Shown: positions 6,014 through 32,763 of the stretch, one piece after another
How the letters are laid out: the number at the start of each line of letters is the position of its first letter
Position numbering within the stretch: position 1 is the stretch's first letter
NCBI GenBank assembly: GCA_019695335.1
Contig: JAIBAF010000036.1
Coordinates: forward strand, 1-36,991
Source: a bacterium
GTDB taxonomy: Bacteria > CLD3 > SB21
DNA length: 36,991 nt
Direction: 5' to 3'
Translations under genes and position numbers: made by a program
Notes under the pieces: model-generated
Seen by the model: only the letters and a program-made list of their open reading frames with translations
What the model was told of the DNA's origin: nothing
Databases searched by the model: none

Positions 6014-6859
6014 TTACTTATTAAAAACTGCGGCAAGGCCGTAATTCATTGCTTCAGAAGGAACGGTAAAATGTCCTCCCTTATCAAAAACTCTTGTTGT
6101 CAATTTTAACTCGGAATAGTTTCTGCCCGTTATTTTTGTGATCATTGCTTTAACATTTTCAGGATGAAAATTTTCTCCTTCGTCTGATCCGAACGAAATA
6201 AACACATCAGCTTTTAATTCAGCGTTATTCTGGGAATACGTTTCTTCATCTTTGAATATTGCTTTGTTATCCCATGAAACTGTCGGACTGCTGATTATAT
6301 ATTTATTAAAAAGGCCGGTTTCTCTGAATAGAACATACGTTGCAAAAAGCCCGCCCATTGAATGACCTTCAATAACTCTGTTCTTTTTATCTGTTCTATA
6401 ATTTTTATCCACAAAAGGAATTAATTCTTTTTTTAAAAAGGCCAGAAACTGGCCGGCTTTTCCCGTTCTCTGATCCTCAGGAATTTGCGTCGGAGAATAA
6501 TCTCTCATCCTATTGTTTTTTCCTCCGGGACCGGAATTCAAGCTGCCATATCCAATTCCAACAATGATGATTTCCGGGATGTGTCCGCCCAATAAAAGAT
6601 GAGGTGTTACTCCGCAGGCAACAAAATAGGCTATATCACCATCCAGTACATAAAAAACGGGATAAGTTGAATTTGAAGAAGTGTAGCTTGCTGGAAGTTT
6701 AACATATAAGTTAAAAGTGTCCTTAACTTCTTTCGAGTTAAATAAATAATATTCTGCGTTTTGATTGACAAAAGAGTGTTCAACGGATATTTTTTGCGAT
6801 TGTGCGTTTAAATTCATCGCAACCATTAATGGGATTAAAAAAACCAGTTTTATTTTCAT
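6014..6859 (-). CDS. secreted alpha/beta hydrolase (esterase D / enterochelin-esterase-like)
   Basis: A predicted exported hydrolase of 281 residues. The N-terminus MKIKLVFLIPLMVAMNLNAQ is a typical signal peptide, which is why I start at 6859; an upstream ATG at 6886 would add nine residues in front of the signal. The fold call rests on the nucleophile elbow GHSMGG (Ser167), a candidate acid in GSDEGE (Asp226/Glu227) and a C-terminal His263 in KGGHF, plus YPVFYVLDGD near 66-75 as in the putative esterase family (PF00756). It sits in the permease operon between P4 and P3, so it is probably co-transcribed. Its base composition looks more AT-rich than the permeases around it, suggesting later insertion. 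The substrate is unknown; members of this family act on esters including siderophores, acyl-thioesters and sugar esters. Confidence 0.88.
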   Translation of the reverse strand: MKIKLVFLIPLMVAMNLNAQSQKISVEHSFVNQNAEYYLFNSKEVKDTFNLYVKLPASYTSSNSTYPVFYVLDGDIAYFVACGVTPHLLLGGHIPEIIIVGIGYGSLNSGPGGKNNRMRDYSPTQIPEDQRTGKAGQFLAFLKKELIPFVDKNYRTDKKNRVIEGHSMGGLFATYVLFRETGLFNKYIISSPTVSWDNKAIFKDEETYSQNNAELKADVFISFGSDEGENFHPENVKAMITKITGRNYSELKLTTRVFDKGGHFTVPSEAMNYGLAAVFNK

Positions 6860-6912
6860 TTTCTCTTTTAAGCGTTTGGCACTCATGGCAACACCGTGGC
6901 TGTTTTTAAATC

Positions 6913-9324: not shown

Positions 9325-9371
9325 ACACCCTCTCTCGTAATAAAATTATGGATAATTGAAATTATATAATC

Positions 9372-11783
9372 TTATTCGTATTTCAGTGCATTTACCGGAT
9401 TCGATGTCGCGGCTTTGATTGCATGATAACTGATGGTCAAAAACGCGATGGCTAAAGTCATAACGCCCGCCATTGCAAACATCATCCAATTCAATTCTAC
9501 ACGGTATGCAAATGATTCCAGCCACCACTTCATGCTAAAATAAGCGACAGGCCACGCAATGAGATTTGAAATCAATACGAGTTTTACAAGTTCCGCCGAC
9601 AACATCCTGACAATTCCAGACACGGTGGCTCCCAAAACTTTTCGTATGCCAATTTCTTTGGTGCGTTTTTCACTCGTGAAAGCGGCAAGTCCGTAAAGGC
9701 CGAGACAAGCAATAAAAATGGCCAGTCCTGCAAATACACCGAAAATTTGACTTAGTTTTTCTTCCGCTTCATATTGTTTGCGTAAACCGTCTTCCAAAAA
9801 ACGATATTCAAAAGGACGGTTGGGGTCGAATGCCTTCCATGTTTTTTGAAGAAATTCGAGAGCGGATGCTGTAGAATTCGGGCGAATCCGTACAGCGATA
9901 CTTTCAAAAAATCCTTCCGACCCTAAAATAAAAACAGCCGGATCGATTTTTTCACGAAGCGATCGGTAGTGAAAATCATGAACGACACCGATAATTTCCT
10001 GCGGCTTGGAATTTTCAGGACCTTCCGCCATTGAAATGAATTGTTTCCCAACTGCACCATCGGCGTTGCCCCAACCAAATTCTATAGCGGCAGATTCGTT
10101 GATAACAAGTTTGTTTTTATCAGTAGGAAAATCTTTTGAAAACGCCCGGCCAGAAGCCATGGAGGAGGATAACGTTTTAAAATAATCCTCATCAACATAG
10201 TATGCATAAAATCTTTTTTCGTGCCCGGGTTCGGCGCCATCGGGACGACCCACGCTCACCCACCATCCTGACTGACCCGGCAGCGAATTACAAAAAGCCG
10301 CATCAAGAACATCTTGCTGGACAGTGATGGCACTTTTAAAAGCCTGCAATTGAGTCAAAACAGTTGAATTGCGCAAATTTAAAACAATCACATGTTCGCG
10401 ATCAAAGCCGAGATTTTTATTACGAATATAGTTTAGCTGGGAAAACACAACGACAGTACCGACGATCAGCGTGGCTGAAATTAAAAATTGAACCACGACC
10501 AACCCCTGGCGTAATTTCGCTCCGCCCGTTCCCATTACCTGCCGATCCTTCAAAACATCGATAGGGTTAAACCGGGATAAAACAAATGCAGGATAACTTC
10601 CTGCAAAAAAGCCTACTAATAACGTCAGTATGACCAATCCTGACATCCACGACCAATCTGACAATAAATGAACTTCCATCGCCCGACCGGCAAGAGAATT
10701 GAATAACGGCAAAATTAATTCGACTATACCAAGCGCAATGATCAAAGCCAACGTCGCCAGCAGTAACGACTCGCTTAAAAATTGTCGGATCAATTGAAAA
10801 CGAAATGCCCCGGCGGATTTCCGTACTCCTACTTCTTTGGCGCGCCCAAGAGAACGTGCGGTGGAAAGATTCATGAAATTGATGCAGGCGATCAGAATTA
10901 TGAAAATTGCAAGCGCAGAAAACAAATAGACATAGGCCAAGTTACCAAAGCTCCCGTCCGAATTGGAGAAATCAGAATGCAAATGAATATCGGTCAAAGC
11001 TTGCAATTGAATCGATGGTTTGCTCATACCGGGAAGACGGGGATTCGGCATTCTTTGACGCATAAATTCTGCCATTTTCTGATCGACGATTTCTTTGTAA
11101 GCATCTTCACGTAACAGCACATAGGTATAAAATCCGAATCCTTGCCAATTTTCACGACGTTGGACTTTTTCATTTTCAAAACTGATCATCAATGCCGGTT
11201 GAATGTGCGAAATGACAGGAATATCTTTCAAAATACCTGATACAGTGAAAGTTTTCATTTTGCCGTTGATTTCGATTTCCAATGATTGACCGATCGGATT
11301 GGATGAACCAAAGTATTTCTCAGCCAGGTCACGGTTAATTACAACGGACGATAAATCATTCAACGCTGTTTGAACATTGCCCGACAACAATGGAAATGAA
11401 AAAATCTCGAATATGGAGGGATCGGTGTAAAACAATTCATCTTCATAAAATGATTGTTCTCCTTTGTGAACCAAAACATGGCGGCGAGGTCCCATTCGCA
11501 CAAAATTTTCAATTTCCGGAATATCGGTTTTTAAACCGGGACCGATTGGAGGCGACGTAACCTCGACTAAATTCGTTTCACCGCGATCGTTAAATTCGGC
11601 TAGTACCCGGTAAATGCGATCTGACTTTTCGTTAAAACGATCGAAAGACAATTCGTCTTTTACATACAGCATGATGGCCATACAACACGCCATGCCGACA
11701 GCAAGACCGGATAAATTGATAATGGTGTGTGTTTTGTGTCTGGTAAAATTGCGGAAAGCAATTTTTAAATAATTTTTGAACAT
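9372..11783 (-). CDS. P5: FtsX/MacB-type ABC transporter permease
   Basis: A permease of 803 residues with the standard two-FtsX-domain plan. TDIHLHS is at 264-270 and the second cytoplasmic motif KEIGIRKVLGA at 709-719; the protein ends NPVNALKYE. The first cytoplasmic motif is altered: KEVGVRKSAGA (316-326) instead of RKVLGA or RKVVGA, while the second copy is canonical. The MacB-like periplasmic core (about 45-285) contains TSPPIGP near 76-82, shared with P4. The ATG at 11781-11783 has a strong AGGAG that overlaps the stop codon of P6, so translation of P5 is probably coupled to P6. Only nine bases separate the two genes. Function is inferred from family only: an ABC export or mechanotransmission permease needing the shared ATPase. 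Confidence 0.94.
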   Translation of the reverse strand: MFKNYLKIAFRNFTRHKTHTIINLSGLAVGMACCMAIMLYVKDELSFDRFNEKSDRIYRVLAEFNDRGETNLVEVTSPPIGPGLKTDIPEIENFVRMGPRRHVLVHKGEQSFYEDELFYTDPSIFEIFSFPLLSGNVQTALNDLSSVVINRDLAEKYFGSSNPIGQSLEIEINGKMKTFTVSGILKDIPVISHIQPALMISFENEKVQRRENWQGFGFYTYVLLREDAYKEIVDQKMAEFMRQRMPNPRLPGMSKPSIQLQALTDIHLHSDFSNSDGSFGNLAYVYLFSALAIFIILIACINFMNLSTARSLGRAKEVGVRKSAGAFRFQLIRQFLSESLLLATLALIIALGIVELILPLFNSLAGRAMEVHLLSDWSWMSGLVILTLLVGFFAGSYPAFVLSRFNPIDVLKDRQVMGTGGAKLRQGLVVVQFLISATLIVGTVVVFSQLNYIRNKNLGFDREHVIVLNLRNSTVLTQLQAFKSAITVQQDVLDAAFCNSLPGQSGWWVSVGRPDGAEPGHEKRFYAYYVDEDYFKTLSSSMASGRAFSKDFPTDKNKLVINESAAIEFGWGNADGAVGKQFISMAEGPENSKPQEIIGVVHDFHYRSLREKIDPAVFILGSEGFFESIAVRIRPNSTASALEFLQKTWKAFDPNRPFEYRFLEDGLRKQYEAEEKLSQIFGVFAGLAIFIACLGLYGLAAFTSEKRTKEIGIRKVLGATVSGIVRMLSAELVKLVLISNLIAWPVAYFSMKWWLESFAYRVELNWMMFAMAGVMTLAIAFLTISYHAIKAATSNPVNALKYE

Positions 11784-11789
11784 GCTTTT

Positions 11790-11794
11790 CTCCT
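11790..11794 (-). promoter_or_regulatory. Shine-Dalgarno of P5 overlapping the P6 stop codon
   Basis: AGGAG reads on the minus strand six bases before the P5 ATG. Its first two bases are the last two of the TAG that ends P6. This fixes the P5 start and implies that ribosomes finishing P6 can reinitiate on P5. It is also one of several clear Shine-Dalgarno sites here, which speaks against a Bacteroidia host. Confidence 0.75.
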
Positions 11795-14183
11795 ATTCAT
11801 ACCGTAATGCATTGACTGGGTTCGCCGAGGCTGCACGATAGGCTTGTAATCCGACTGTTCCCAGCGCAATAAACAGCACTAAAACGCCTGACAGCAAAAA
11901 TACATCCGTACCCACCATAACTCGGTATGCAAAATTTGAAAGCCATTGCTGCATGGTATAATAAGCTGCAGGGAAAGCAACCAATCCTGAAAACAGAACA
12001 AGTATCAGAGTTTCCTTTGAAAGCTTATACACGATGGATAATTCGCTAGCTCCTAACACTTTCCGCACACCGATTTCTTTTCTCTTTTGTTCCGTTGTGA
12101 ACGAGGCAAGACCAAAAAGTCCCAAACAGCCAATAAAAATTGCAATCAATGCGAATACTTCGAACAGGTTTTGTGTATTGCTCGCGTTCCGGTAATTGTT
12201 TTCAAAATACTGGTCAACAAAGCCGTAATCGAACGGCTGAGAAGGCAAAAGTCTTTCCCAAACCGATCGGACAGCTTCTACACCATCACTGATTCCACCG
12301 GAATTTAGCTTAACGAGTATAAACTTTACGCCGCTCTGGCTCGCATACATAATCATCGGTTCTATTTTAGCGTATAGTGAAAATCCATGGAAATCCTTTA
12401 CGACGCCAATCACCGAAACTGTTTCATTCCCAAAATCAAATTGTTTTCCAATGGGGTCACCCCATCCCAACTCTTTGACAGCAGTTTCATTAACTACAAC
12501 GCCGGAAGCGGTGTCTGAGGCAATCCCTCGTTGAAAAACCCTTCCTTTAACAATCGTTAGACCCATTGTTTCAGCAATTTCATAATCAACTGGAGTAAAC
12601 CGCATCGTTAGGCTTTGCTGACCATCGGTGCCTGCCACACGAACAGTACCATTGGAACCACTGAGCAGTCCAATGCCTCCGGCGGCTGAAACATTCACTG
12701 CATATCCTTCTGAAATTAGCTTAGATTTTAACAACGGATATTTATCGCGAATTGCCTGATTGCGGATAGGAAGATACAGGACCTGATCTTTTTCAAAGCC
12801 AAGATCTTTATTATAGACATAATTCATCTGCTTCATAACCAAACCTGTACAAACAACGAGCATTAAGGCGATGGCAAATTGAAGGAACACCAACCCTTTT
12901 CGTAACAATACTCCGCGGAGACTGGTGGCGAAAGTGCCTTTCATCGTTTCGACGGCCTGATAAGCAGAAAGAACGAAAGCCGGATAGATGCCGGCAAGAA
13001 AGCCGATAACAATGGTTATGCCAAGCAACCCTGCGAGAAAGAAAAACTCGAAACGATAGTCAATTAGAATTTTTCCACCCATAACAGATTTGAAGGCCGG
13101 AAACAATGCTTCTACTATTATCTGAGAAAAAAACAACCCCAGAAAGGCCAGAATGACGGCTTCGATAATAAACTGAGTTATAAGCCTCCCACGGCTGGAA
13201 CCAAGCACTTTACGGATGCCGACTTCTTTTGCTCGCCGCAGCGATCGTGCAGTGGCAAGGTTCACATAGTTAATGATTGCAATAACAAGAATAAACACTC
13301 CGATTGCCAGAAAGAGCGCTAACGTATTAATATTGCCTTGGTTATTATTCATTGGTTGATAGAGCAACTGTCCTGAATACAAATGGATGTCCAAGAACGG
13401 CTGCAAGTAGTAGTACAACTTATCGGTTGGATCCGGCTGAAGATGTTTCCTCCTTGTCGCCGTTACTTGCTTTTCCACTTCTTCTCGTGAAGCACCTTCT
13501 TGCAACAGCACGTACGACGCCAAGGCGTTTGCATTCCATGATGCAAAATAAGCCGGTTCTTGCGCGCCCACGGGAATTGGCATCAACATCGAAAAGACCA
13601 AGCTCGAATTACCCGGATAATTCTTCATCACAGCAGTTATTTCATATACATCAGTTCCACCCGGGTGCTCCAACGTGATAGTATGGCCTACGGCTGCTTC
13701 GGAACCAAAATATTTTTTTGCAGTTTCTTCATCGATGATAAGTGAATAGGGTTTTGCCAGCGCCGTGGTCTTATCCCCCGAAATAAATTCAATGTCGAGT
13801 ACTTTTAATACCGCAGGATCGCACACGACAATGCCGCTTTCGATAAAACGCTTCTCGCCTGCCGAACAAAGCGTCGAATTGAAATTGTACAAACGAAACG
13901 CTTGTTCGATGGCCGGCACATCATCCAACACTGCTGGAACCAGTGGCGCGGGTGTTACAGCGTTGTGATAGGTCCCGAGATTAGGTGACTCGGCAACTCC
14001 AACGACTCGATATATTCTATCGGCTTTCGCATGAAATGTATCATAGCTGATATCATTCATCGCATAGATCGCCACAAACGTGGCGCAAGCAATACCAATT
14101 GCTAAACCTAGAATATTGATCGAGGCGTACATTGGATTACGACGCAAATTGCGCAGCGCTACTTTTACATAATTGTCAAACAT
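11793..14183 (-). CDS. P6: FtsX/MacB-type ABC transporter permease
   Basis: A permease of 796 residues. Helix about 21-42; periplasmic core about 45-285 carrying TPAPLVPA near 77-84 and DIHLYS at 265-270; helix about 287-310; KEVGIRKVLGS at 319-329; second periplasmic domain with GVVKDFHGFSLYAKIEPM; KEIGVRKVLGA at 702-712; C-terminus NPVNALRYE. The start is well set by GGAGGT four bases before the ATG. It has unusual residues in the second helix (AIINYVNLATARS instead of ACINFMNLATARS), so it is a separate branch from P4 and P5. It lies between the repeat protein (68 bases upstream) and P5. It is not linked to a particular substrate. Confidence 0.94.
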   Translation of the reverse strand: MFDNYVKVALRNLRRNPMYASINILGLAIGIACATFVAIYAMNDISYDTFHAKADRIYRVVGVAESPNLGTYHNAVTPAPLVPAVLDDVPAIEQAFRLYNFNSTLCSAGEKRFIESGIVVCDPAVLKVLDIEFISGDKTTALAKPYSLIIDEETAKKYFGSEAAVGHTITLEHPGGTDVYEITAVMKNYPGNSSLVFSMLMPIPVGAQEPAYFASWNANALASYVLLQEGASREEVEKQVTATRRKHLQPDPTDKLYYYLQPFLDIHLYSGQLLYQPMNNNQGNINTLALFLAIGVFILVIAIINYVNLATARSLRRAKEVGIRKVLGSSRGRLITQFIIEAVILAFLGLFFSQIIVEALFPAFKSVMGGKILIDYRFEFFFLAGLLGITIVIGFLAGIYPAFVLSAYQAVETMKGTFATSLRGVLLRKGLVFLQFAIALMLVVCTGLVMKQMNYVYNKDLGFEKDQVLYLPIRNQAIRDKYPLLKSKLISEGYAVNVSAAGGIGLLSGSNGTVRVAGTDGQQSLTMRFTPVDYEIAETMGLTIVKGRVFQRGIASDTASGVVVNETAVKELGWGDPIGKQFDFGNETVSVIGVVKDFHGFSLYAKIEPMIMYASQSGVKFILVKLNSGGISDGVEAVRSVWERLLPSQPFDYGFVDQYFENNYRNASNTQNLFEVFALIAIFIGCLGLFGLASFTTEQKRKEIGVRKVLGASELSIVYKLSKETLILVLFSGLVAFPAAYYTMQQWLSNFAYRVMVGTDVFLLSGVLVLFIALGTVGLQAYRAASANPVNALRYE

Positions 14184-14186
14184 CGG

Positions 14187-14192
14187 ACCTCC
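14187..14192 (-). promoter_or_regulatory. Strong ribosome binding site of P6 (GGAGGT)
   Basis: A full GGAGGT lies on the minus strand just before the P6 start codon. It is the strongest Shine-Dalgarno match noticed in the operon, follows the 68-base gap after the repeat-protein gene, and probably lets P6 be translated independently of that gene. Confidence 0.65.
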
Positions 14193-14251
14193 ATGAAGAA
14201 AGTACGGTTAAACTATTTTTATTACAGTTTTGACCATACTGCTGTTCTGTG

Positions 14252-15289
14252 TTACCATTCCGTCAATACATCAATGATTGCTTCGTTTTTCATTCCGGCA
14301 TCTTTCATTTTACGCACTTTGGATGCCGTGATTCCGTGAATACCCATCTGAACAATTTCGTCAGTCGTAAAACCAAGTTCTTTCATTTCACTGACAAAGC
14401 CAGGACGGAGTCCGTGAATGCCGAATTGCACAATATCTTCAACGGAAAAACCTTTGTCACTCATTTCACGGATGAAGCTTGAGCGAAGGCCATGAATGCC
14501 AAATTGTATGGCTTCATCGACGGAATAACTCATGGCTTTCATATCTTTGATAAAATCCGGTCGTACACCGTGAATGCCGATTTGAACAATTTCATCGGTA
14601 TCAAAGCCGAGCGCTTTGGCTTCCCGGATGTAAGCAGGTTTCAAACCATGGATCCCGTATTGAATTGTTTCATCGAGATTATCCGATAAGCCATCCATAT
14701 CTTTGATGAACGACGGTTTAATACCGTGAATCCCAAGTTGAACTATGGCGTCTACATCGCAGCCTTCATTTTTGGCATTTTCAATAAAATCCTTTTTGAT
14801 TCCATGAATGCCGAATTGAACGACTTCCGAAAGACGGTATCCTAAAGGAGCCAATGTTTCGACGTAATCCGTTTCTACATCGCAGACGGCCAAATCAAAA
14901 ATCTCACTGTCTTTGACGTTCTTGTAACCCCATTTGCTCAGATTCATCGCAAACGCCTCATCAGGAACAAATACGTACTTACCGGAAGCTTTACCCTTGC
15001 GGCATTCCCCGGTAAAATAAACCGTGCCCTGTTTAAAAGGCATGGTAAAAGAAATTTCACCGTCGTCGTGTCTGGCTTTGGATTTGTCAAGGCCTTTAAA
15101 ACGGCTGTAGGAAATCCCTTGAAACGTTGTCATAGACTCTCTTTGATCAGGCCGCCTCATGGTCAATGAAATTTCGCTGCCGCTGAAAACAGCTTCCCAA
15201 GTGCCTTGGAAACCGTTGTCAGCCGCATAGCCATGAGCAGCGGCCGTGATCAAAAGAGTAAGCAGGGAGAGAAATATTTTATAGCGCAT
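14252..15289 (-). CDS. secreted protein with eight 26-residue tandem repeats (GIHG repeats)
   Basis: A predicted exported protein of 345 residues with no assignable enzyme. Residues 1-22 form a signal peptide (KIFLSLLTLLITAAAHGYA). Residues about 25-110 look like a small beta-rich domain with alternating strands (GTWEAVF, ISLTMRR, GTVYFTG, GKYVFVP). Residues 134-341 are tandem repeats of exactly 26 residues. Seven copies carry GIHG at 160, 186, 212, 238, 264, 290 and 316, and a degenerate copy begins at 134. The repeat consensus is roughly GIHGxxxxFIxxMKxxGxxxDEIVQx, alternating two short helices. Similar hGVxxxFIxEL repeats occur in exported tails of BlaR1/M56-like proteins of Bacteroidetes and Acidobacteria; that link is from memory, not a search. 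Start ATG follows AAAGGA. It sits between P7 and P6 in the exporter operon, so it may be a periplasmic partner or cargo. Confidence 0.85.
   Translation of the reverse strand: MRYKIFLSLLTLLITAAAHGYAADNGFQGTWEAVFSGSEISLTMRRPDQRESMTTFQGISYSRFKGLDKSKARHDDGEISFTMPFKQGTVYFTGECRKGKASGKYVFVPDEAFAMNLSKWGYKNVKDSEIFDLAVCDVETDYVETLAPLGYRLSEVVQFGIHGIKKDFIENAKNEGCDVDAIVQLGIHGIKPSFIKDMDGLSDNLDETIQYGIHGLKPAYIREAKALGFDTDEIVQIGIHGVRPDFIKDMKAMSYSVDEAIQFGIHGLRSSFIREMSDKGFSVEDIVQFGIHGLRPGFVSEMKELGFTTDEIVQMGIHGITASKVRKMKDAGMKNEAIIDVLTEW
14267..14890 (-). repeat. 78-bp coding tandem repeat array (8 units)
   Basis: Eight consecutive 78-base units encode residues 134-341 of the repeat protein. A recurring string like TGAATGCCGAATTG is visible on the plus strand in several units, with base changes between copies. 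The period is constant with no insertion or deletion. The unit at the 5' end of the gene is the most degenerate. Confidence 0.85.
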
Positions 15290-15327
15290 CTAAAATTCCT
15301 TTCTAAAATCATGGACATTAAAAACGA

Positions 15328-17700
15328 TCATTCATATTTAATAGAATGAATTGGGTTGACGACTGCAGCCTTGACGACACGATAGCTGATCGTCACCAGA
15401 GCCAGAAACAGCGACAATCCGAGCGTTGCGACAAAAACAGACCATGGAATGTCAACGCGATAACTGAAATTTTCCAGCCAGCGGTACATGACGTAATAGA
15501 TCAGCGGCCACGCGATCATGTTGGCTATGATGACATAAAAAAGAAAATCTTTTGAAACCAGGAATAAAATGTCATGAATGCCGGCGCCCAGAACTTTGCG
15601 AATACCGATTTCTTTCGTACGTTGCTCCACGGTCAGCGAAACCAATCCGAATAATCCGAGGCAAGCGATCACTACCGCCATCAAGGTAAAAATCCTTACC
15701 AGAGCCTGCAGTTTCATTTCAGATTGGTATAACGCAGCAAACGAATCGTCGAGAAAATAATATTCAAACGGAACGTTGGGCCGGAGGCTTTCCCATGTTT
15801 TGCCAATAAACTGTAATGTTTCCTGGATTGAATTGGCCGTCAGACGAACCGATATATAACTGTAAAGATTGGAAACCGGATTTAAATGAATCGCCGCCGG
15901 TTCGACATCGTTGTGTAAGGAAGCAAAATTAAAATCTTTAACCACACCGACGATTTTCCCACTGCGCTGAAAACCCGGGAATTCGACGTTTTTACCGACT
16001 GGATCGGTATAGCCAAAAAGCGCTTTGGCTTTTTCATTAATTAAGAATGCTCCGAGTGAGTCTGATGGAAAAGCTGTTGAAAAGCTTCTTCCTTCGGCCA
16101 TTCGCATACCGAAAGTTTCAACAAAGTTAAAGTCTGAAACGATAACCCGTAAAGCATATTCGGGTTTTTCGGCTGCTTCCGGACGAAGCAGTTCGATCAT
16201 CACACGCTCGCTTGGAATAGTCAGCGATGCCGAAACATTAGAAACCGCCGGATTTTGCGACAAAATATTTTTGAAAGTATTGTAATCAGGTTGAGCGATC
16301 TGGCTTGCAGGAATGATCAATACTTGTTCTTTGTCTAATCCGATATCTTTATTCTGAATAAATTCGAGCTGTTTGTAAACAATACTGGAACCGATGATCA
16401 GTATGGTCGAAATAACAAATTGAAGCACTAAAAGTGTTTTCTTCAAACCGCGCACACCGATGGTTTGAGAATCCATAACGTTTTGTTTCAAAATATGGGC
16501 CGGCTGAAATTTCGAAAGAAACAACGCCGGAAATAATCCCGCAACGCATCCCACTAACAGACTAAATACGGCAAAATACACTAAAGCCATCGGTTCAAAT
16601 AACGATTGAATACCCGATCGAATGGTAATCGTATCGGACAAAAATGGCGTCAGGATTTCGATCAAAATTAACGCCGATACTGCGGCACTAAGCGCCATCA
16701 GAATCGATTCAGTCAGAAATTGGCGGATAACCTGATCCCGCAATGCCCCAAATGTTTTCCGAAGACCGACTTCTTTGGCACGTCGCATAAATCCGGCTGT
16801 TGCCAGGTTAACAAAATTGAAAACAGCCGTCGCCAGAATAAAAAAAGCGACGCTGGTCAGAATTAATAAATTGGATGAGTCATTGCCCGGCTCGATTTCT
16901 TTTTCACACTTTGAATACAGATGGATATTTTCAATCGGCTGAAGTTTTACGGTCGATGGTTGAGTTGAGCCTCCGAAAAGTGTTAAATCCCGTTCATCAA
17001 GAGTTTTCGCGACCTTTTTCTCCAACGCAGCAACGTCGACACCCGGTTTGATCAGAAGATACGTGTACATAATACTGATCCCCCATTGCACTCGTACATT
17101 GTCTTCAGGAATTTGCAACGTACTCATGGAAACGAGGTAATCGAAAGTGAAATGCGACTTCGATGGAACATTATCCATAACGCCGGTAATCTTGTATTCG
17201 GTGGAATTGGCTCCTAATTTCAAGCTCCGGTCGATCGGATTTTCATCACCAAAGTATTTGGATGCCAATGCGCGGGTGAGTACGATAGAGTTAGGGGCAT
17301 TAAGCGCCGTTTTCGGGTCGCCAGCAATGACTGAATATGAAAAAACCTCAAAAATGGAAGCGTCGGTGTAAAAACCTTTTTTTTCTATAAAATGCTGATC
17401 GCCATTGGTAAAAATATTTCTTGGGATCTTATAAAACCGCACAGCCTGCTCGACTTCAGGGAAATTATTGCGGATATACGGTCCGAGCGCCATACGGCCG
17501 GCAGCCCAATTATCTTCTTCGATCCTGTACAGCCGATCGGCATTAACATGGTAGCTATCAAACGTCATTTCATCATAAACGTACTTTGCGATAATTACGC
17601 ATGAAGCAATGCCAATCGCCAAACCAAAAATATTGATCGCCGAAAAAATTTTATTTTTCAGCAACGTCCGAAAAAAAAGTTTAAAGCTGTTTTTGATCAT
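15328..17700 (-). CDS. P7: FtsX/MacB-type ABC transporter permease
   Basis: A permease of 790 residues. Helix about 20-41; periplasmic core about 45-275, shorter after the first helix than in its neighbours because the TSPPIGP-like segment is missing; NIHLYS at 258-263; helix about 277-300 (AVFNFVNLATAGF); altered first motif KEVGLRKTFGA at 309-319; second periplasmic domain with GVVKDFNFASLHNDVEP; canonical KEIGIRKVLGA at 696-706; C-terminus NPIHSIKYE. The FNFVN stretch resembles P3 and P10, while the rest is closer to P2, so it is intermediate. The Shine-Dalgarno is weak (CAAAG before ATG). It is 27 bases downstream of P8, and the repeat protein follows it. Confidence 0.93.
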   Translation of the reverse strand: MIKNSFKLFFRTLLKNKIFSAINIFGLAIGIASCVIIAKYVYDEMTFDSYHVNADRLYRIEEDNWAAGRMALGPYIRNNFPEVEQAVRFYKIPRNIFTNGDQHFIEKKGFYTDASIFEVFSYSVIAGDPKTALNAPNSIVLTRALASKYFGDENPIDRSLKLGANSTEYKITGVMDNVPSKSHFTFDYLVSMSTLQIPEDNVRVQWGISIMYTYLLIKPGVDVAALEKKVAKTLDERDLTLFGGSTQPSTVKLQPIENIHLYSKCEKEIEPGNDSSNLLILTSVAFFILATAVFNFVNLATAGFMRRAKEVGLRKTFGALRDQVIRQFLTESILMALSAAVSALILIEILTPFLSDTITIRSGIQSLFEPMALVYFAVFSLLVGCVAGLFPALFLSKFQPAHILKQNVMDSQTIGVRGLKKTLLVLQFVISTILIIGSSIVYKQLEFIQNKDIGLDKEQVLIIPASQIAQPDYNTFKNILSQNPAVSNVSASLTIPSERVMIELLRPEAAEKPEYALRVIVSDFNFVETFGMRMAEGRSFSTAFPSDSLGAFLINEKAKALFGYTDPVGKNVEFPGFQRSGKIVGVVKDFNFASLHNDVEPAAIHLNPVSNLYSYISVRLTANSIQETLQFIGKTWESLRPNVPFEYYFLDDSFAALYQSEMKLQALVRIFTLMAVVIACLGLFGLVSLTVEQRTKEIGIRKVLGAGIHDILFLVSKDFLFYVIIANMIAWPLIYYVMYRWLENFSYRVDIPWSVFVATLGLSLFLALVTISYRVVKAAVVNPIHSIKYE

Positions 17701-25027: not shown

Positions 25028-25717
25028 TTAAATTTTTGCGGCTTCTTTCATATTTTCGGTCACAATGTGTCCGTCGAAAAGATGAATAACCCGTCCGGCG
25101 TATTCCGCGTGCGATGGCGAGTGCGTCACCATAACGATGGTCGTTCCGGCCTGATTCAGATCCGTTAAAAGCCGCATGACTTCTTCACCGTGCGCAGAAT
25201 CGAGATTACCGGTAGGTTCGTCAGCAAGGATGAGTTTGGGTTTGGCAACGACGGCACGCGATACAGCCACACGCTGTTGCTGACCGCCGGATAATTGTTG
25301 TGGAAAGTGATTGCGGCGATGGGCGATTTGCATTTGCTCCAGTGTTTCTTCGACGCGTTTTTTGCGGTCACCCGATGTCATACCAAGATAGAGTAAGGGC
25401 AATTCGACGTTTTCGAATACCGTCAATTCATCGATCAAATTGAAACTTTGGAAAACGAAACCAATATTGGCTTTGCGCATATTGGAACGCTGGCGTTCGG
25501 TGAATTTTGAAACTTCTTTGTCGAGAAAATAATATTCGCCGCTGCTCGGATTGTCCAATAACCCGATGACGTTGAGCAGAGTGGATTTACCGCAGCCTGA
25601 AGGTCCCATGATAGCCACAAATTCGGCGTTGTTGATTTCGAAATTAACGTTGTTCAACGCTGTTGTTTCCACTTCGTCCGTGGTGTACAGCTTTTGAAGG
25701 TTTCGTGCTTTGATCAT
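25028..25717 (-). CDS. ABC transporter ATP-binding protein, MacB/LolD family
   Basis: The 229-residue cytoplasmic ATPase that should power the permeases of this operon. It shows Walker A GPSGCGKST (38-46), Q-loop Gln90 (FVFQSFNL), signature LSGGQQQR (142-149), Walker B LILADE (162-167) followed by PTGNLD, and the switch histidine in VTHS (His199). The length and the FVFQSFNL and ADEPTGNLD strings are typical of the MacB/LolD/FtsE branch, which pairs with FtsX-fold permeases. ATG follows AAGGAA. It lies between the adaptor gene (50 bases upstream) and P10 (33 bases downstream). It is the only ABC ATPase gene in the window although there are ten permeases, so it may serve all of them, or others may be encoded elsewhere. 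Confidence 0.97.
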   Translation of the reverse strand: MIKARNLQKLYTTDEVETTALNNVNFEINNAEFVAIMGPSGCGKSTLLNVIGLLDNPSSGEYYFLDKEVSKFTERQRSNMRKANIGFVFQSFNLIDELTVFENVELPLLYLGMTSGDRKKRVEETLEQMQIAHRRNHFPQQLSGGQQQRVAVSRAVVAKPKLILADEPTGNLDSAHGEEVMRLLTDLNQAGTTIVMVTHSPSHAEYAGRVIHLFDGHIVTENMKEAAKI

Positions 25718-25767: not shown

Positions 25768-27024
25768 TTATTTTTGTTTCAGCATTAATTTATCTATATC
25801 GCCATAACTGTCGTACGACGATGTCACCACTTGTTCGCCCGGATACAACCCATCGATGACTTCAAAAACCTGGGGATTCTGCCGGCCGAGTTTGATCGGA
25901 CGCTTAATGGCAAAATCACCCGAAGGATCGACGACAAAAATCCATTGCCCGCCGGTCTTCTGATAAAATCCTCCGCGCGGTACCAGCACGGCTTCGGCAA
26001 GATCGCCGAGTTCCAGACGGATCTGCAACGTCTGGCCGCGGCGGATATCTTTGGGCGCTTCACCCTGGAATTCCATATCGACTTCAAACCGGCCGTTACT
26101 GACTTCCGGATAAACTTTTTTGATAATTAAAATATAAGTTTTGCCGGCGAAATCGAATTCGCCCGATTGTCCGATCTGTATGCGCGCGATATAATGTTCA
26201 TCAATCCCTGCCCGCACTTTAAATCCGTCGAGCACGTCGATTTGGCCTAAGCGGTCACCGGAACGTTTGGATTCACCAAGTTCAGCGTTACGTGAAGTTA
26301 ATTGTCCGTTGACAGGGGCACGAATCGTGAGGTTAGCGAGATTTTCTTTGATGACATTCAGGTTGGTTTGCATGTGCTGGATCGATGCTTCGAGCGATTG
26401 CATTTGCGTGGCGCGTAAAATGGAATCGGAATGCATGCTCTCGATCAAAAGATCCCGGCGATTAACGGCATACTGATATTCATCGCGCGCCTGTTCATAT
26501 TCCTGCTGCGACGTCAGGTTTTGAGGAAGCAAACCTTTTTGAACATCGTAGTTCCGTTTCCACCGTTGAATCTGATATTCCAAATCGATCAGATCGCCTT
26601 TATTGCGGATGCGGTTTTGTTCGAACGCCAAACGGGTGTTGCGCAAATTATTGATCTGTTCGAACAGCTGCGCTTCGCGAAACATCACATCCATCTGGAG
26701 GTTCGTGTTGGTCAGTTTGAGGATCTCTTCACCCTCTTTCACGATCGTACCTTCTTCGATGAATAATTTTTCAACGCGTCCGCCTTCCATCGCATCGAGA
26801 TAAATCGTCTTGATCGGAAGCACGTTACCCGTTACAGGAATAAATTCCTGGAAAGGACCTTTCGTGACCTTGGCCAAAGTAATTTTTTCAACTTCGACGT
26901 TCAGCTTTGACGACGTGTCGCCGAAAAGAAATGTGTAAAAAACAAAGATGAACAGAAGTCCGCCACCCCCAAAGATTGCAATCTTTTTCGGCGTCCAATT
27001 CTTTTTTTCAATTTTACGATCCAT
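25768..27024 (-). CDS. MacA/HlyD-like periplasmic adaptor (membrane fusion protein)
   Basis: A 418-residue adaptor that would bridge the inner-membrane transporter to an outer-membrane channel. One N-terminal anchor helix (about 14-34) follows a positive stretch (MDRKIEKKNWTPKK). Next come a split lipoyl domain (GGRVEKLFIEEGTIVKEGE, 81-99, and IRAPVNGQL, 234-242), an alpha-helical hairpin (about 110-230), and beta-barrel and membrane-proximal domains to the end. The hairpin tip at 154-178 (RWKRNYDVQKGLL, then LTSQQEYEQ) fits the conserved tip by which MacA/AcrA adaptors meet TolC. I start at ATG 27024; an in-frame TTG at 27063 would place 13 extra residues in what is probably the 5' leader. 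First gene of the operon, downstream of a putative sigma-54 promoter. No TolC gene is in view. Confidence 0.93.
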   Translation of the reverse strand: MDRKIEKKNWTPKKIAIFGGGGLLFIFVFYTFLFGDTSSKLNVEVEKITLAKVTKGPFQEFIPVTGNVLPIKTIYLDAMEGGRVEKLFIEEGTIVKEGEEILKLTNTNLQMDVMFREAQLFEQINNLRNTRLAFEQNRIRNKGDLIDLEYQIQRWKRNYDVQKGLLPQNLTSQQEYEQARDEYQYAVNRRDLLIESMHSDSILRATQMQSLEASIQHMQTNLNVIKENLANLTIRAPVNGQLTSRNAELGESKRSGDRLGQIDVLDGFKVRAGIDEHYIARIQIGQSGEFDFAGKTYILIIKKVYPEVSNGRFEVDMEFQGEAPKDIRRGQTLQIRLELGDLAEAVLVPRGGFYQKTGGQWIFVVDPSGDFAIKRPIKLGRQNPQVFEVIDGLYPGEQVVTSSYDSYGDIDKLMLKQK

Positions 27025-27076
27025 GTTTAATCCAATTCCATGTTTTGTAATGACTAAAGACAATTAATCCGGGCAA

Positions 27077-27274: not shown

Positions 27275-30200
27275 CTAAGCCAGTTTTTCTAATTCCACGA
27301 TGGTGTCGTAATAATTTTTTTCCAATTCTTCGATCATAGAACGGATTTTAGAAAGATCCTTTTTGCGGCCGCATTGATCAATGTGTTCGCACAAATCGGC
27401 CATATACCGTGCGCCGATATTGCCGCAAGCGCCTTTCAGATTATGCGCAGCCATGGAAAGATTGGTTGTATCGTCAGCTTCTGCATGTTTTTTGATTTGA
27501 GCAATCAAGGACGGAGCTTGACGGAGAAACATGGCAATGATATCCTGGAAAAAACTCGGATCGTCTTCGGTAGCAAGGCTCTTCAATCCATCGATCGTAC
27601 GGGCATCGACAATCTTATTCGGGCGCTTGAGTTCGTGATGAGCCGGTTCAATTTTAGGCTTGATCGCGTGGCCCCATTTCGCCAGCGCAGCTGAAACTTC
27701 CTCCAGCCGGATCGGTTTACTGATGTAATCATCCATGCCCGCTTCAATGCACCGTTCGCGGTCGCCTTGCATCGCATTGGCCGTCATGGCGACGATTTTC
27801 GGACGGGTATCGGTCGGCCAGTTTTCGACAATATGACGCGTTGCTTCGAGTCCATCCATTTCCGGCATCTGCATGTCCATGAATACGAGATCGTAATGCT
27901 GCCGTTTGAGCGCGTCGACAGCTTCAATGCCGTTGCCTACCACGTCGGCAAGATACCCGATCTGCTTCAAAATCCGAAGCGCAACTTTCTGGTTGACGAC
28001 GTTGTCTTCGGCAACGAGAATCCGCAACGGACGCAGCTCGACGGTTTTGTCATCCGTGTGAACGGGTTGTTCGAGAGTTTCCGGAATGGCTTTGGCCCCG
28101 GCAAGCGTATTCATCAGCATATCAAAAAATTGCGATTGACGGATCGGTTTGGAAACATACGCTTGAAAAATCTCTTTGGCTTCTTTGACGCTGCGTTCGT
28201 TTTTTCCGAGCGACGTCAGCAAGATCATCGGCATTTGTTCTTCCGTGCGCAATTCGCGAATCGCTTTGCCCAACATGAGTCCGTCCATTTGCGGCATCTG
28301 CATATCAATGATGGCCAGATCAAACGATTCACGGTTTTTCAGCCAATCGACGGCTTCCTGACCGGAAGCCGTAGCTTTGGCAACAAGTCCCCAATGCTGG
28401 CATTGCGTTGACAAAATTTTGCGATTCGTCTCGTTGTCATCCACGATGAGTACCGATTTGCCGTCCAGTTCCGTCACACGACCGGCTTTACGGTCATCCG
28501 AAGATTTTTGCGCAACGGCTGTTTTGAGCGTAAATGAAAAAACCGATCCCTTGCCTTCGACGCTTTCCGCCCACATGCGCCCGCCCATGAGTTCGGATAA
28601 CCGTTTACAAATCGCAAGTCCCAATCCGGTACCGCCGTATTGACGCGTCGTGGATGAATCGACTTGTGAAAACGATTTGAAAAGGCGGTCCATCTTGTTG
28701 GTGGGAATGCCAATCCCCGTATCTTTCAGCGAAAATTGAAGCTCTTGGGCCGCGCCGGTTTGTTTGATTTTCTTAACATTGAGGAAAATTTCACCTTTGG
28801 GAGTAAACTTAACGGCGTTGCTGACAAGATTCGCCAGGATCTGCCGGACTCTTGTCACGTCGCCGACAACAAACGTCGGTACATCCGGTTCGATGAAATA
28901 AAGTAATTCTAATTGTTTTTCGGCAACCATTGACGCAAAAAGATCGAATGTATCTTCGATGCAACTCCGCAGATCGAAAGGCTGTTCTTCCAATTCCATC
29001 TTGCCGGATTCGATCTTTGAGAAATCCAGAATGTCATTAATGATCGTGAGAAGCGTTTCGCCGCTGACCCGGATGGTTTCGACGAAACTGCGCTGTTCCG
29101 CGCTCAATTCCGTTTCCATCAGCAATCCGGTCATACCGATCACGCCGTTCATCGGCGTACGGATTTCGTGGCTCATGTTCGCTAAAAATTCCGACTTGAG
29201 CCGGGCCGCAGCCAAAGCAGCTTCGCGGGCGGAAATCAATTCGCGGTCAAGATGTTTCCGTTCGGTGATGTCGCGCACGATCGCCAACACTTCGTCTACG
29301 CCGCTGACAACGATCCGGGCCTCGTGATCGCGTACACGGCCGTCCACTTCGATCTGATATTCGAAAACCTGCATTTCAGCGGTTTCAAGCGCTTTTTCGA
29401 CGTATTGCATCGTCTTTTCAGCCGCGCTGAGAATCTGGCCGCTCGTGACCACCACGCCGAAATCTTTTGGAACGCGGAAATCGAACATGATGCCGTCATG
29501 GCGCAGACGGTACATCAAATCGGGAATAGCGTTGAGCAGTGCCTGCGTTTTGGCTTCGCTCTTGCGCAAAGCTTCTTCGGTCTGTTTACGTTCGTTAACT
29601 TCTTTTTGTAAAGCTTTGGTGCGCTCGTCGATACGTTTTTCGAGATTGCGGTTGATCTCTTCAAGTTGTTTGTACGCTACCTCAAGATTGTCCACCATCT
29701 CGTTGAACGCACTGGCCAGCTGGGCAACTTCATCGTTATAATACGTCGGGGCGCGGTGAGAAAGATCGCCGTTGGAAACTTTTTCAACTGTTGCGACCAT
29801 TTGCCCGAGGTGACTCGTTACGGCCGTACTGATCGTAAAAACGGCGATCATACCGATAACGAAAATCAACATACTAACAGTGGTAATCGTCGTACGGCTC
29901 TGATCGATTTCCGCGCGGATACTCTCCAAAGAAATACCGACAAACACACGTCCGATTTTTTTCCCGTCTTTATAAACGACGGTCATACCTTGGTACAATT
30001 TTCCGTCGTTAGAAATTATGTTATGATGCGTAGGATGATCAAAATTGTATTGATTGGCGAGTTCGCGGTTAAAAATTCCCAGCGCTTTACCGGTATTATT
30101 GATTATGATCATGTAAACAAGGTCTTCGTTCTGACGGGCTACCTGGATGGTTGAATAAATAACGCTGGTATCCGTAGTCTGGATCGATCCGGAAAGGCTG

Positions 30201-30376
30201 AACGCTACCATTTCACCGATGCTCTGCGCCTTGGCTTTGATAGAACGAATCGCCTGATCTTCAAGGCGCGTCGGAAAGAAAACAAAAATAAAAACCGAAA
30301 TCACGCCGATGATCAGGGTAACCAAGAGCGAAAGCTTGGTCCGAATTGTGGAAAGTCCTCTACGGGAAAATGCCAT
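27275..30376 (-). CDS. BarA-like hybrid sensor histidine kinase (HAMP-PAS-HisKA-HATPase-REC-REC-HPt)
   Basis: A membrane-bound phosphorelay kinase of 1033 residues. Helix about 13-35; extracytoplasmic sensor about 36-160; helix about 163-186; HAMP about 187-240; coiled coil about 235-275; PAS about 276-375; dimerisation domain with His403 in SHEIRTP; ATPase domain with N-box ([11 protein letters not shown], Asn520), DTGIGI (552-557) and GGTGLGLAI (581-589); first receiver with phospho-acceptor Asp691 ([11 protein letters not shown]); second receiver with Asp834 ([11 protein letters not shown]); C-terminal HPt with His978 in [11 protein letters not shown]. All catalytic residues are present, so a four-step relay within one chain is possible. 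The output partner is not adjacent. It lies just upstream of the exporter operon on the same strand, 250 bases from the adaptor, and is divergent from the CoA-binding gene. It may be unrelated to the exporter. Confidence 0.95.
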
Positions 30377-30978: not shown

Positions 30979-30999
30979 AATTTAGTGTGACTTTTGCTT

Positions 31000-31350
31000 A
31001 TGTTTAAAGCCGAAGAATTAAAAAAACGAACTAAATTATTTGCGATCCGTATTGTACGGCTGTTTAGGACATTGCCTAAAACGGAAGAAAGCCGTGTTAT
31101 AGGTAAACAACTTTTGCGTTCTGGAACATCGGTTGCGGCCAATTATCGCGCGGTTTGCCGTGCCCGATCTAAAGCCGAATTTATTGCAAAAATGGGTATT
31201 GTCGTCGAAGAAATTGACGAAACTGTTTTTTGGCTTGAAATGCTGATTGATACAAAAATTATAAAGGAACTTTTGCTCAAAGACCTCCTGAAGGAAGCCA
31301 ATGAATTACTGGCCATTTTTGCAGCCTCCCAAAGAACTTCCAAGCAATGA
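31000..31350 (+). CDS. four helix bundle protein (S23 / 23S rRNA intervening-sequence protein family)
   Basis: A 116-residue protein that appears all helical. Features typical of the family (TIGR02436/PF05635) are LFRTLPKTEESRVIGKQLLRSGTS near the first and second helices, VAANYRAV, then RARSKAEFIAKMGIVVEEIDETVFWLEML. The start is ATG 31000; a TTG two codons earlier is less likely. In some bacteria this protein is encoded inside 23S rRNA intervening sequences, and it also occurs as stand-alone genes of unknown role and in diversity-generating retroelements (Avd). No rRNA or reverse transcriptase is here. It lies 43 bases after the CoA-binding gene and 36 before the response regulator, bounded by inverted repeats, as if inserted between them. 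Confidence 0.88.
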   Translation: MFKAEELKKRTKLFAIRIVRLFRTLPKTEESRVIGKQLLRSGTSVAANYRAVCRARSKAEFIAKMGIVVEEIDETVFWLEMLIDTKIIKELLLKDLLKEANELLAIFAASQRTSKQ

Positions 31351-31386: not shown

Positions 31387-32763
31387 ATGCTTCCAAAATC
31401 CACCAAAATTCTTGTCATCGATGACGACGAAGACGTTCTTTTAGCCGCAAGGCTTTTTCTTAAACAACATGTCAGCGTTGTACAGACTGAAAAAAATCCC
31501 GAGCAAATTCCTGTCCTGCTTAAGAATGAAAATTACGACGTCATTCTGCTCGATATGAATTTTACGCGCGACGTGAGCAGCGGTTATGAAGGATTTTTCT
31601 GGCTGAATAAAATTTTAGAGCTCGATCCGCGAGCCGTTGTAATTCTGATCACGGCTTATGGCGACGTAGAAATGGCCGTTCGCGCGATCAAAGAAGGCGC
31701 AATGGATTTTGTTCTGAAACCGTGGCAAAACGAAAAACTGCTCGCTACGTTATCGGCCGCCATGAATCTGCGTCAATCACGCCTCGAGGCGGAAAACCTC
31801 CGCTCGCGGCAGGAACTTCTTTCCGCCGAACTCGACCAGCCTTTTCACGATATTATCGGGCGGGCGGGCGCTATGCTGCAGGTTTTCTCCACCATTCAGA
31901 AAGTCGCCAAAACAGACGCTAATGTACTGATCCTTGGCGAAAACGGAACTGGTAAAGAGCTGATCGCACGTGCGCTTCATCGGCAGTCATTACGCGCCAA
32001 AGAAGTCTTTATTACGGTCGACATGGGTGCGATTAGCGAAACATTGTTTGAAAGTGAACTTTTCGGTCATGTAAAAGGCGCTTTTACCGACGCCAAAGAA
32101 GACCGCGCGGGACGATTTGAAATTGCATCGGGAGGAACGTTATTTCTAGACGAAATCGGCAATCTCTCTTTGCCGATGCAGGCGAAACTGTTGACCGTTT
32201 TGCAAAACAGGGAAGTAACGCGCATCGGATCGAACAAATCATTTCCAATTGATATCCGGTTGATATGCGCGACGAATTTGCCGATCCACGCTATGGTTGG
32301 TGAAAAAAAATTCCGACAGGATTTGTTGTATCGTATCAATACGGTCGAAATCGCTTTACCGCCTCTGCGCGATCGTGCCGACGATCTGCCGGCGCTGGCC
32401 GAACATTTTATCGCCCTGTATTGTAAAAAATACCAAAAATCCTCAAAAAGTTTGCACGTGGCCGCGCTGAAAAAGCTTGAAAAATACTCGTGGCCGGGCA
32501 ATGTTCGTGAATTGCAACATACCATCGAACGCGCCGTGATCATGAGCGAATCACCGCTATTACAGCAAGACGATTTCCTGCTGACGGCTTCGCATGGCAA
32601 AGCCGAAGGTTTGATGATCGACGACTACAATTTAGAAGAAATTGAAAAAGCGCTGATTCGGAAAGCGCTGAGTAAACACGGCGGTAATGTCAGTCATGCG
32701 GCCAAAGACCTCGGACTGACGCGCACGTCGCTTTACCGCAGGCTTGAAAAATATGGTTTATAA
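31387..32763 (+). CDS. NtrC-family sigma-54-dependent response regulator
   Basis: A 458-residue transcriptional activator. The receiver domain is about 6-120, with acidic pocket Asp12-Asp14, phospho-acceptor Asp56 (ILLDMN), Thr89 and Lys111. The AAA+ domain, about 155-385, has Walker A GENGTGK (184-190), the sigma-54 contact loop as GAFTDA (231-236) instead of GAFTGA, Walker B TLFLDE (251-256) and WPGNVREL (369-376). A Fis-type helix-turn-helix lies at about 415-456 (NVSHAAKDLGLTRTSLYRRL). All hallmarks of a complete NtrC-type activator are present. It overlaps the following kinase gene by 11 bases, so the two are co-translated. The likely target is the sigma-54 promoter and palindromes upstream of the exporter operon; this is inference. 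The Shine-Dalgarno is poor. Confidence 0.96.
   Translation: MLPKSTKILVIDDDEDVLLAARLFLKQHVSVVQTEKNPEQIPVLLKNENYDVILLDMNFTRDVSSGYEGFFWLNKILELDPRAVVILITAYGDVEMAVRAIKEGAMDFVLKPWQNEKLLATLSAAMNLRQSRLEAENLRSRQELLSAELDQPFHDIIGRAGAMLQVFSTIQKVAKTDANVLILGENGTGKELIARALHRQSLRAKEVFITVDMGAISETLFESELFGHVKGAFTDAKEDRAGRFEIASGGTLFLDEIGNLSLPMQAKLLTVLQNREVTRIGSNKSFPIDIRLICATNLPIHAMVGEKKFRQDLLYRINTVEIALPPLRDRADDLPALAEHFIALYCKKYQKSSKSLHVAALKKLEKYSWPGNVRELQHTIERAVIMSESPLLQQDDFLLTASHGKAEGLMIDDYNLEEIEKALIRKALSKHGGNVSHAAKDLGLTRTSLYRRLEKYGL

Follow-up and report, generated by a model that had tools for sequence, protein, structure and literature searches.

We find that a gene set between two permease genes in a 36,991-nucleotide stretch of bacterial DNA (contig JAIBAF010000036.1 of assembly GCA_019695335.1, hereafter the window) encodes a secreted-looking protein with a small beta domain and an alpha/alpha solenoid, and that relatives of this protein share their repeats with M56 membrane peptidases. 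The reading that we favor, held tentatively and at a little under even confidence, is that the protein acts in the periplasm as a sensor or a binding protein and belongs to an M56-linked signaling family; here it has no M56 partner and sits in a permease operon. To our knowledge, the signals of M56 peptidases outside of beta-lactam resistance systems are mostly unknown, as are the substrates of MacB/ADOP permeases. If the favored reading is right, many M56 peptidases would gain a recognizable sensor module, often along with a secreted partner sharing its repeats, and the question of what such peptidases sense becomes testable. Part of the MacB/ADOP permeases would be tied to a signaling module, and the window copy would be a natural variant in which a sensor-like protein is kept without the protease.

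Sequence and architecture of the solenoid protein

The features of the gene, its product and the surrounding array are collected in Table 1. A sequence-only reading of the window had described a signal peptide, a small beta-rich domain and eight repeats of exactly 26 residues, seven of them with GIHG, and had proposed that the repeats form a regular solenoid. Each element of that description is borne out. The leader looks classical when the translation is read by eye, the beta-rich domain is modeled as strands, and GIHG begins at residues 160, 186, 212, 238, 264, 290 and 316 of the translation, with AVCD taking its place in unit 1 (residues 134 to 159). At lags 26 and 52 alike, the autocorrelation of the protein sequence is 0.99, against a maximum of −0.33 at any lag in 1000 shuffles. 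Since the seven GIHG units are only 41–67% identical to one another as DNA, the repeat array is old and did not arise by tandem duplication in recent times. Purifying selection acts on the gene (dN/dS 0.06 against the sister species, at a dS of 1.8 that is near saturation), and the solenoid is acidic, with a net charge of −14 and a pI of 4.9. Promoter and terminator scans gave nothing above shuffle level. In Pfam, the window protein does not match PF05569, the M56 catalytic membrane domain, and neither Pfam nor NCBIfam places it in a known family of substrate-binding proteins.

Table 1. Features of the solenoid gene and of the permease array, with positions in the window
Feature	Position	Strand	Basis
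CDS, secreted beta-domain and solenoid protein, 345 aa	14252..15289	-	ORF; 82% identical orthologue in sister genome
N-terminal signal peptide (putative), residues 1-22	15224..15289	-	translation by eye; low-pLDDT leader helix
Beta domain, residues 27-109, GxW ... AGT ... GxG motifs	14963..15211	-	AlphaFold2; conservation
Alpha/alpha solenoid, residues 111-345	14255..14959	-	AlphaFold2, block pLDDT mostly 95-98
Eight 26-residue units, residues 134-341, seven with GIHG	14267..14890	-	autocorrelation versus shuffles
Downstream neighbor, MacB_PCD/FtsX (ADOP-like) permease	11793..14183	-	domain matches; no orthologue in sister array
Upstream neighbor, MacB_PCD/FtsX (ADOP-like) permease	15328..17700	-	domain matches; no orthologue in sister array
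Putative esterase (PF00756), second non-permease gene in array	6014..6886	-	Pfam; sister orthologue 84%
ABC ATPase, MacB/LolD/DarD type	25028..25717	-	Pfam and NCBIfam
HlyD-type periplasmic adaptor	25768..27063	-	Pfam and NCBIfam
Hybrid histidine kinase beside array	27275..30376	-	Pfam
Sigma-54 response regulator	31387..32763	+	Pfam

We modeled the protein with AlphaFold2 from a 46-row alignment consisting of the window protein, its counterpart in the sister species (locus L009) and 44 members picked by eye for spread from the 59 loci with a start that could be found by pattern. The model has a mean pLDDT of 92.5 and a pTM of 0.80. Strands lie between residues 27 and 109. The chain from residue 111 to 345 then forms 18 short helices, almost all of them 9–10 residues long, with one irregular short helix at 193–197. 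The predicted repeats are thus regular two-helix units, in agreement with the solenoid proposed from the sequence. Modeled alone, the beta domain reached a pLDDT of 88.3.

A widespread repeat family

The protein belongs to a family that is widespread and apparently undescribed. A search of named genomes gave 117 candidates, of which 100 were confirmed and the best 80 loci kept. The family spans mainly Acidobacteriota and Myxococcota and is also found in Gemmatimonadota, Bacteroidota, Rhodothermota, Calditrichota, Chloroflexota and others; a search of plasmids returned no relative. No model in Pfam or NCBIfam describes it (NCBIfam at 0.001 gave none for the window protein), and none of the open-access papers that were searched was found to describe it.

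The window protein has the traits of the family, namely a signal peptide recognized by eye, a GxW beta domain following it and tandem repeats with an HG core. Among the best 80 of the 100 loci, 76 have the beta domain (the exceptions are L029, L047, L051 and L063), and its W, G and G are invariant across the 46 aligned members. The spacing from HG to HG in the repeat genes of the same 80 loci, L009 excepted, is 28–29 residues, seldom 30–31 or multiples, and the 26-residue unit occurs only in the window genus, in the window itself and at L009. The consensus of 375 units of 29 residues reads HGVTPEFIxxLxxxGYxxLxxDxLVxxRI; compared with it, the window unit has three residues fewer between the helices and carries G at the position ahead of I-H-G where R is common. 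Members such as L010 (Myxococcus eversor) and L025 (Chloracidobacterium) share with the window protein the leader, the GxW beta domain, the alpha/alpha repeats and the I-H-G ahead of the first helix, whereas the window protein differs from them in having 26 and not 28–29 residues per unit, GIHG and not RIHG, and no adjoining M56 or BlaI gene. In a tree of the beta domain, the window and sister proteins share a long branch, and no neighbor of theirs has support.

The beta domain was detected at E 1e-8 in at least 26 of 199 Acidobacteriota genomes, a lower bound given that at most 24 candidates were scored per genome; the phylum was assigned from the G090 protein, which is the same as that of L058. 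For a second set of Acidobacteriota loci we took 25 of these 26 with longer flanks, the G090 locus being L058 of the first set; L133 of the second set appears to repeat L044. In L137, L139 and L150 from this phylum the beta domain is present and the repeats read IFK-I/V in place of IHG. The HG is not essential, since IFK or IHK replaces it in some members from Acidobacteriota. Three Chloroflexota members (L029, L047 and L051) have, in place of the beta domain, an N-terminus resembling SHOCT, below the cut-off in L051, followed by repeats and with no apparent signal peptide, and the repeats may therefore be used inside the cell too.

Several candidate assignments were set aside. CRS1_YhbY, CPSase_L_D3 and UBA_3 pass the whole-protein Pfam cut-off for the window protein as partial matches, and none of their stretches passes by itself at E 0.001. 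Elsewhere in the family, the Pfam matches are to different and unrelated families (LYTB in 16 of the 46). We rejected these matches because this is the pattern expected from weak helix matches summed over repeats. The pTERF family was not taken for the present one either, in a comparison by description: the available part of PMC11417379 gives it three-helix repeats and places it mostly in Bacillota.

The repeats are shared with M56 peptidases

An ORF for an M56 (BlaR1-type) peptidase is present in 55 of the best 80 of the 100 loci. All 55 of these ORFs contain at least two of the family repeats, compared to 1 of 3441 other ORFs, and that single ORF is a contig-edge fragment adjoining a family gene. 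The sequence-only reading had pointed to BlaR1/M56-type proteins as worth noting in a profile search with the repeat. Of the same 80 loci, 52 have M56 as a fusion or immediately upstream and 42 have a BlaI homologue immediately upstream, and eight M56 ORFs hold the beta domain as well. Five fused proteins with M56, beta domain and repeats were scanned with Pfam, and each has PF05569 on its N-terminal side. A nearby M56 peptidase is common, not universal, and so does not define the family: 22 of the 80 loci, including L009, lack one without a contig edge to account for it, and M56 was found at 9 of the 25 loci in the second Acidobacteriota set.

The available part of PMC7593790 describes the C-terminal part of BlaR1 and MecR1 as an extracytoplasmic sensor and their peptidase as cleaving BlaI or MecI. 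The relatives resemble these BlaR1/MecR1–BlaI/MecI systems (PF05569, PF03965) in lying within or beside M56 peptidases accompanied by BlaI, and their repeats hold the C-terminal position that is the sensor in the BlaR1 of that account. By this analogy, the repeats would be on the sensing side. The window protein differs from BlaR1/MecR1 in having no peptidase domain, and the five M56 fusions scanned with Pfam differ in that no penicillin-binding sensor was matched. That the soluble protein has the same repeats as the M56 peptidases suggests like-with-like assembly.

From this we propose the following mechanism. The window gene encodes a protein with a putative signal peptide, a small and weakly PAS-like beta domain and a predicted alpha/alpha solenoid, from a widespread uncurated family, and the protein would be periplasmic. 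In most relatives, an M56 membrane peptidase has the same repeats in its C-terminal part, and beside its gene lies one for a separate secreted protein of the window kind, often with BlaI. The solenoid would serve as an extracytoplasmic sensing and binding module, and soluble and membrane-bound copies may assemble through their like repeats. Signaling would end in cleavage of BlaI and derepression of envelope genes, and in some Acidobacteriota the derepressed gene may be a MacB/ADOP permease. In the window genus, the M56 partner appears to be absent, and the gene for the soluble protein is retained within an ABC permease operon that has a hybrid kinase gene and a sigma-54 regulator gene beside it. 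The most likely target of the soluble protein there would be an envelope ligand or the periplasmic domain of a MacB-type permease. We consider the full chain rather unlikely to hold in every link, that is, a solenoid with a PAS-like domain acting as the periplasmic sensor of M56/BlaI through like-with-like assembly and controlling MacB/ADOP permeases, with its soluble half rewired in the window genus into a kinase/sigma-54 exporter array without the protease.

A search of the window genome with the solenoid protein returned only the protein itself at E up to 1. No M56 peptidase with these repeats adjoins the gene, and none turned up elsewhere in the genome; a single M56 gene scores over the cut-off, and it lies apart, with BlaI, and has no repeats in its translation. 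Because the genome has no repeat-bearing M56, the M56 mechanism is not directly transferable to the window.

The permease array and its counterparts in relatives

The solenoid gene is separated from its flanking permeases by 68 bp downstream and 38 bp upstream. The permeases, ATPase and adaptor of the window match the models for ADOP, DarB, DarD and DarC, all below cut-offs, which places the array close to ADOP/MacB operons, including that of the darobactin exporter DarBCD; it differs from what those models describe in its many tandem permeases and its solenoid gene, as the models include no solenoid. Between the kinase and the sigma-54 regulator, at 30994-31350, is a gene for a PF05635 (23S rRNA intervening-sequence-type) protein. 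Farther on, a HATPase protein is encoded on the plus strand, like the sigma-54 regulator.

The sister species has the same array, with the solenoid protein 82% identical, the esterase 84%, five permeases 86–90%, and the adaptor, ATPase and kinase 96–97%. Four full-length permeases of the window (starting at 6913, 9372, 11793 and 15328) have no orthologue there, with best matches of 37–44%, and the relatives searched match the upstream neighbor at 30–41% identity. Permeases thus turn over around the solenoid gene between the two species, across 6913-17700 of the window. Since the permeases on both of its sides lack a sister orthologue and the solenoid gene is kept, the gene is not tied to particular neighbors. 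It is absent from the five genomes of the same taxonomic family outside the genus (G002–G006), four of which carry related permeases (E 1e-100), so such permeases work in these relatives without a solenoid protein.

The sequence-only reading had linked the protein to the exporter as an accessory, substrate receptor or cargo, and we compared the genes downstream of relatives with those downstream of other genes. In 5 of 73 loci (L019, L037, L073, L080 and L088), a same-strand MacB/ADOP permease starts no more than 400 bp downstream, compared to 6 of 515 other gene ends at the same loci. These 73 were kept from the best 80 of the 100 loci after leaving out L009 and loci with fewer than 1500 bases downstream. 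When one other gene per locus was resampled, a count of at least 5 was reached in 0.01% of draws (P about 1e-4, with the five loci from one phylum and not fully independent). This gene-end null is stricter than an earlier one based on random points. Because the profile for permeases derives from those of the window itself, distant ones are missed. L025, which has a permease 78 bp after a second soluble gene, is not included in the count, and in the second Acidobacteriota set a permease follows at L138 (268 bp) and L153 (74 bp). Relatives are therefore not confined to contexts unrelated to the exporter, as permeases follow them more often than they follow other genes. The exporter link survives in part, with modest support from comparison: MacB/ADOP permeases flank the gene in each of the genus's two genomes, and permeases are enriched downstream elsewhere, but the dominant context of the relatives is the M56/BlaI pair, and the flanking permeases lack sister orthologues while the gene stays.

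These contexts bear on two other roles. The protein could be an accessory of the permease array that works independently of M56, as a periplasmic receptor or coupling factor on MacB-type domains or on the HlyD adaptor that aids export. Permeases on either side of the gene in the window and sister genomes fit this role, as do the short gaps in the window and the downstream enrichment, and L037 and L153 have a permease where no M56 gene was found. However, the solenoid gene persists as the permeases next to it change, most relatives are away from permeases (any permease in only 13 of the best 80 of the 100 loci), and genomes of the same taxonomic family keep such permeases without the gene. We regard an accessory role as unlikely, yet well above negligible.

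Alternatively, a gene for a secreted protein may have joined a variable array as a passenger, being co-expressed with it and having an unrelated job, or as cargo that itself crosses the outer membrane. The window genome has 77 MacB_PCD matches, many of them in further long permease arrays (contigs C4, C84, C88 and C107). Single non-permease genes lie in other arrays of this genome at L091:6436-7194, L091:14590-15699 and L093:4775-5506; they have, among them, a Peptidase_MA_2 match just below the cut-off, a weak GldB_lipo match and, in the case of one 243-aa product, no Pfam match. As the other arrays hold unrelated secreted-looking genes, a passenger role fits too, and the esterase in the window array and the differing permeases around the solenoid gene in the two species are in keeping with it. 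Against this are the recurrent adjacency to permeases in another phylum, the conserved position in the array and the purifying selection, and we find a passenger or cargo role doubtful. The most likely role is still periplasmic sensing or binding, by which the protein may serve the exporter or report on the state of the envelope.

Fold comparisons

At E 0.001, Foldseek found no match in the PDB for the whole model or for the beta domain. In a second structural comparison, in which a Z under about 13 is ordinary for repeat proteins, the first-ranked alignments of the whole model included a designed left-handed toroid (Z 9.0, rmsd 15.8, 257 aligned) and BurrH (Z 8.4, rmsd 17.7, 258 aligned). BurrH and TALE chains as a group gave Z 7–8.4 with rmsd mostly 15–19, and MTERF was lower at Z 4.5–6.8. 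The TALE-like, BurrH and MTERF alpha/alpha solenoids have helical repeats of a size similar to those of the window protein, and a multi-repeat profile of the family reached E 2e-19 against PDB chains of TAL effectors. A secreted nucleic-acid-binding solenoid akin to TAL effectors or MTERF is nevertheless very improbable, and we do not claim such kinship: a single-repeat profile (56 of 70 repeats, chosen by hand) had no TAL effector, BurrH or MTERF chain among 25 matches up to E 10, nor did the window protein alone as query match any, the structural scores lie below the baseline for repeats and Foldseek was empty at its cut-off, the solenoid is acidic with a pI under 7 in 35 of 46 members, and the leader marks the protein as secreted. 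The top match to the single-repeat profile, IcmE/DotG (E 7e-5), has a best stretch of 12 columns with none passing alone, and we took it as chance. For the beta domain, the closest structure is the FI domain of RpfR, a weak match (Z 5.9, rmsd 3.3, 75 aligned), with PAS and LOV chains next at Z 4–5; the predicted domain weakly resembles a PAS fold, at a level too low to give it that name.
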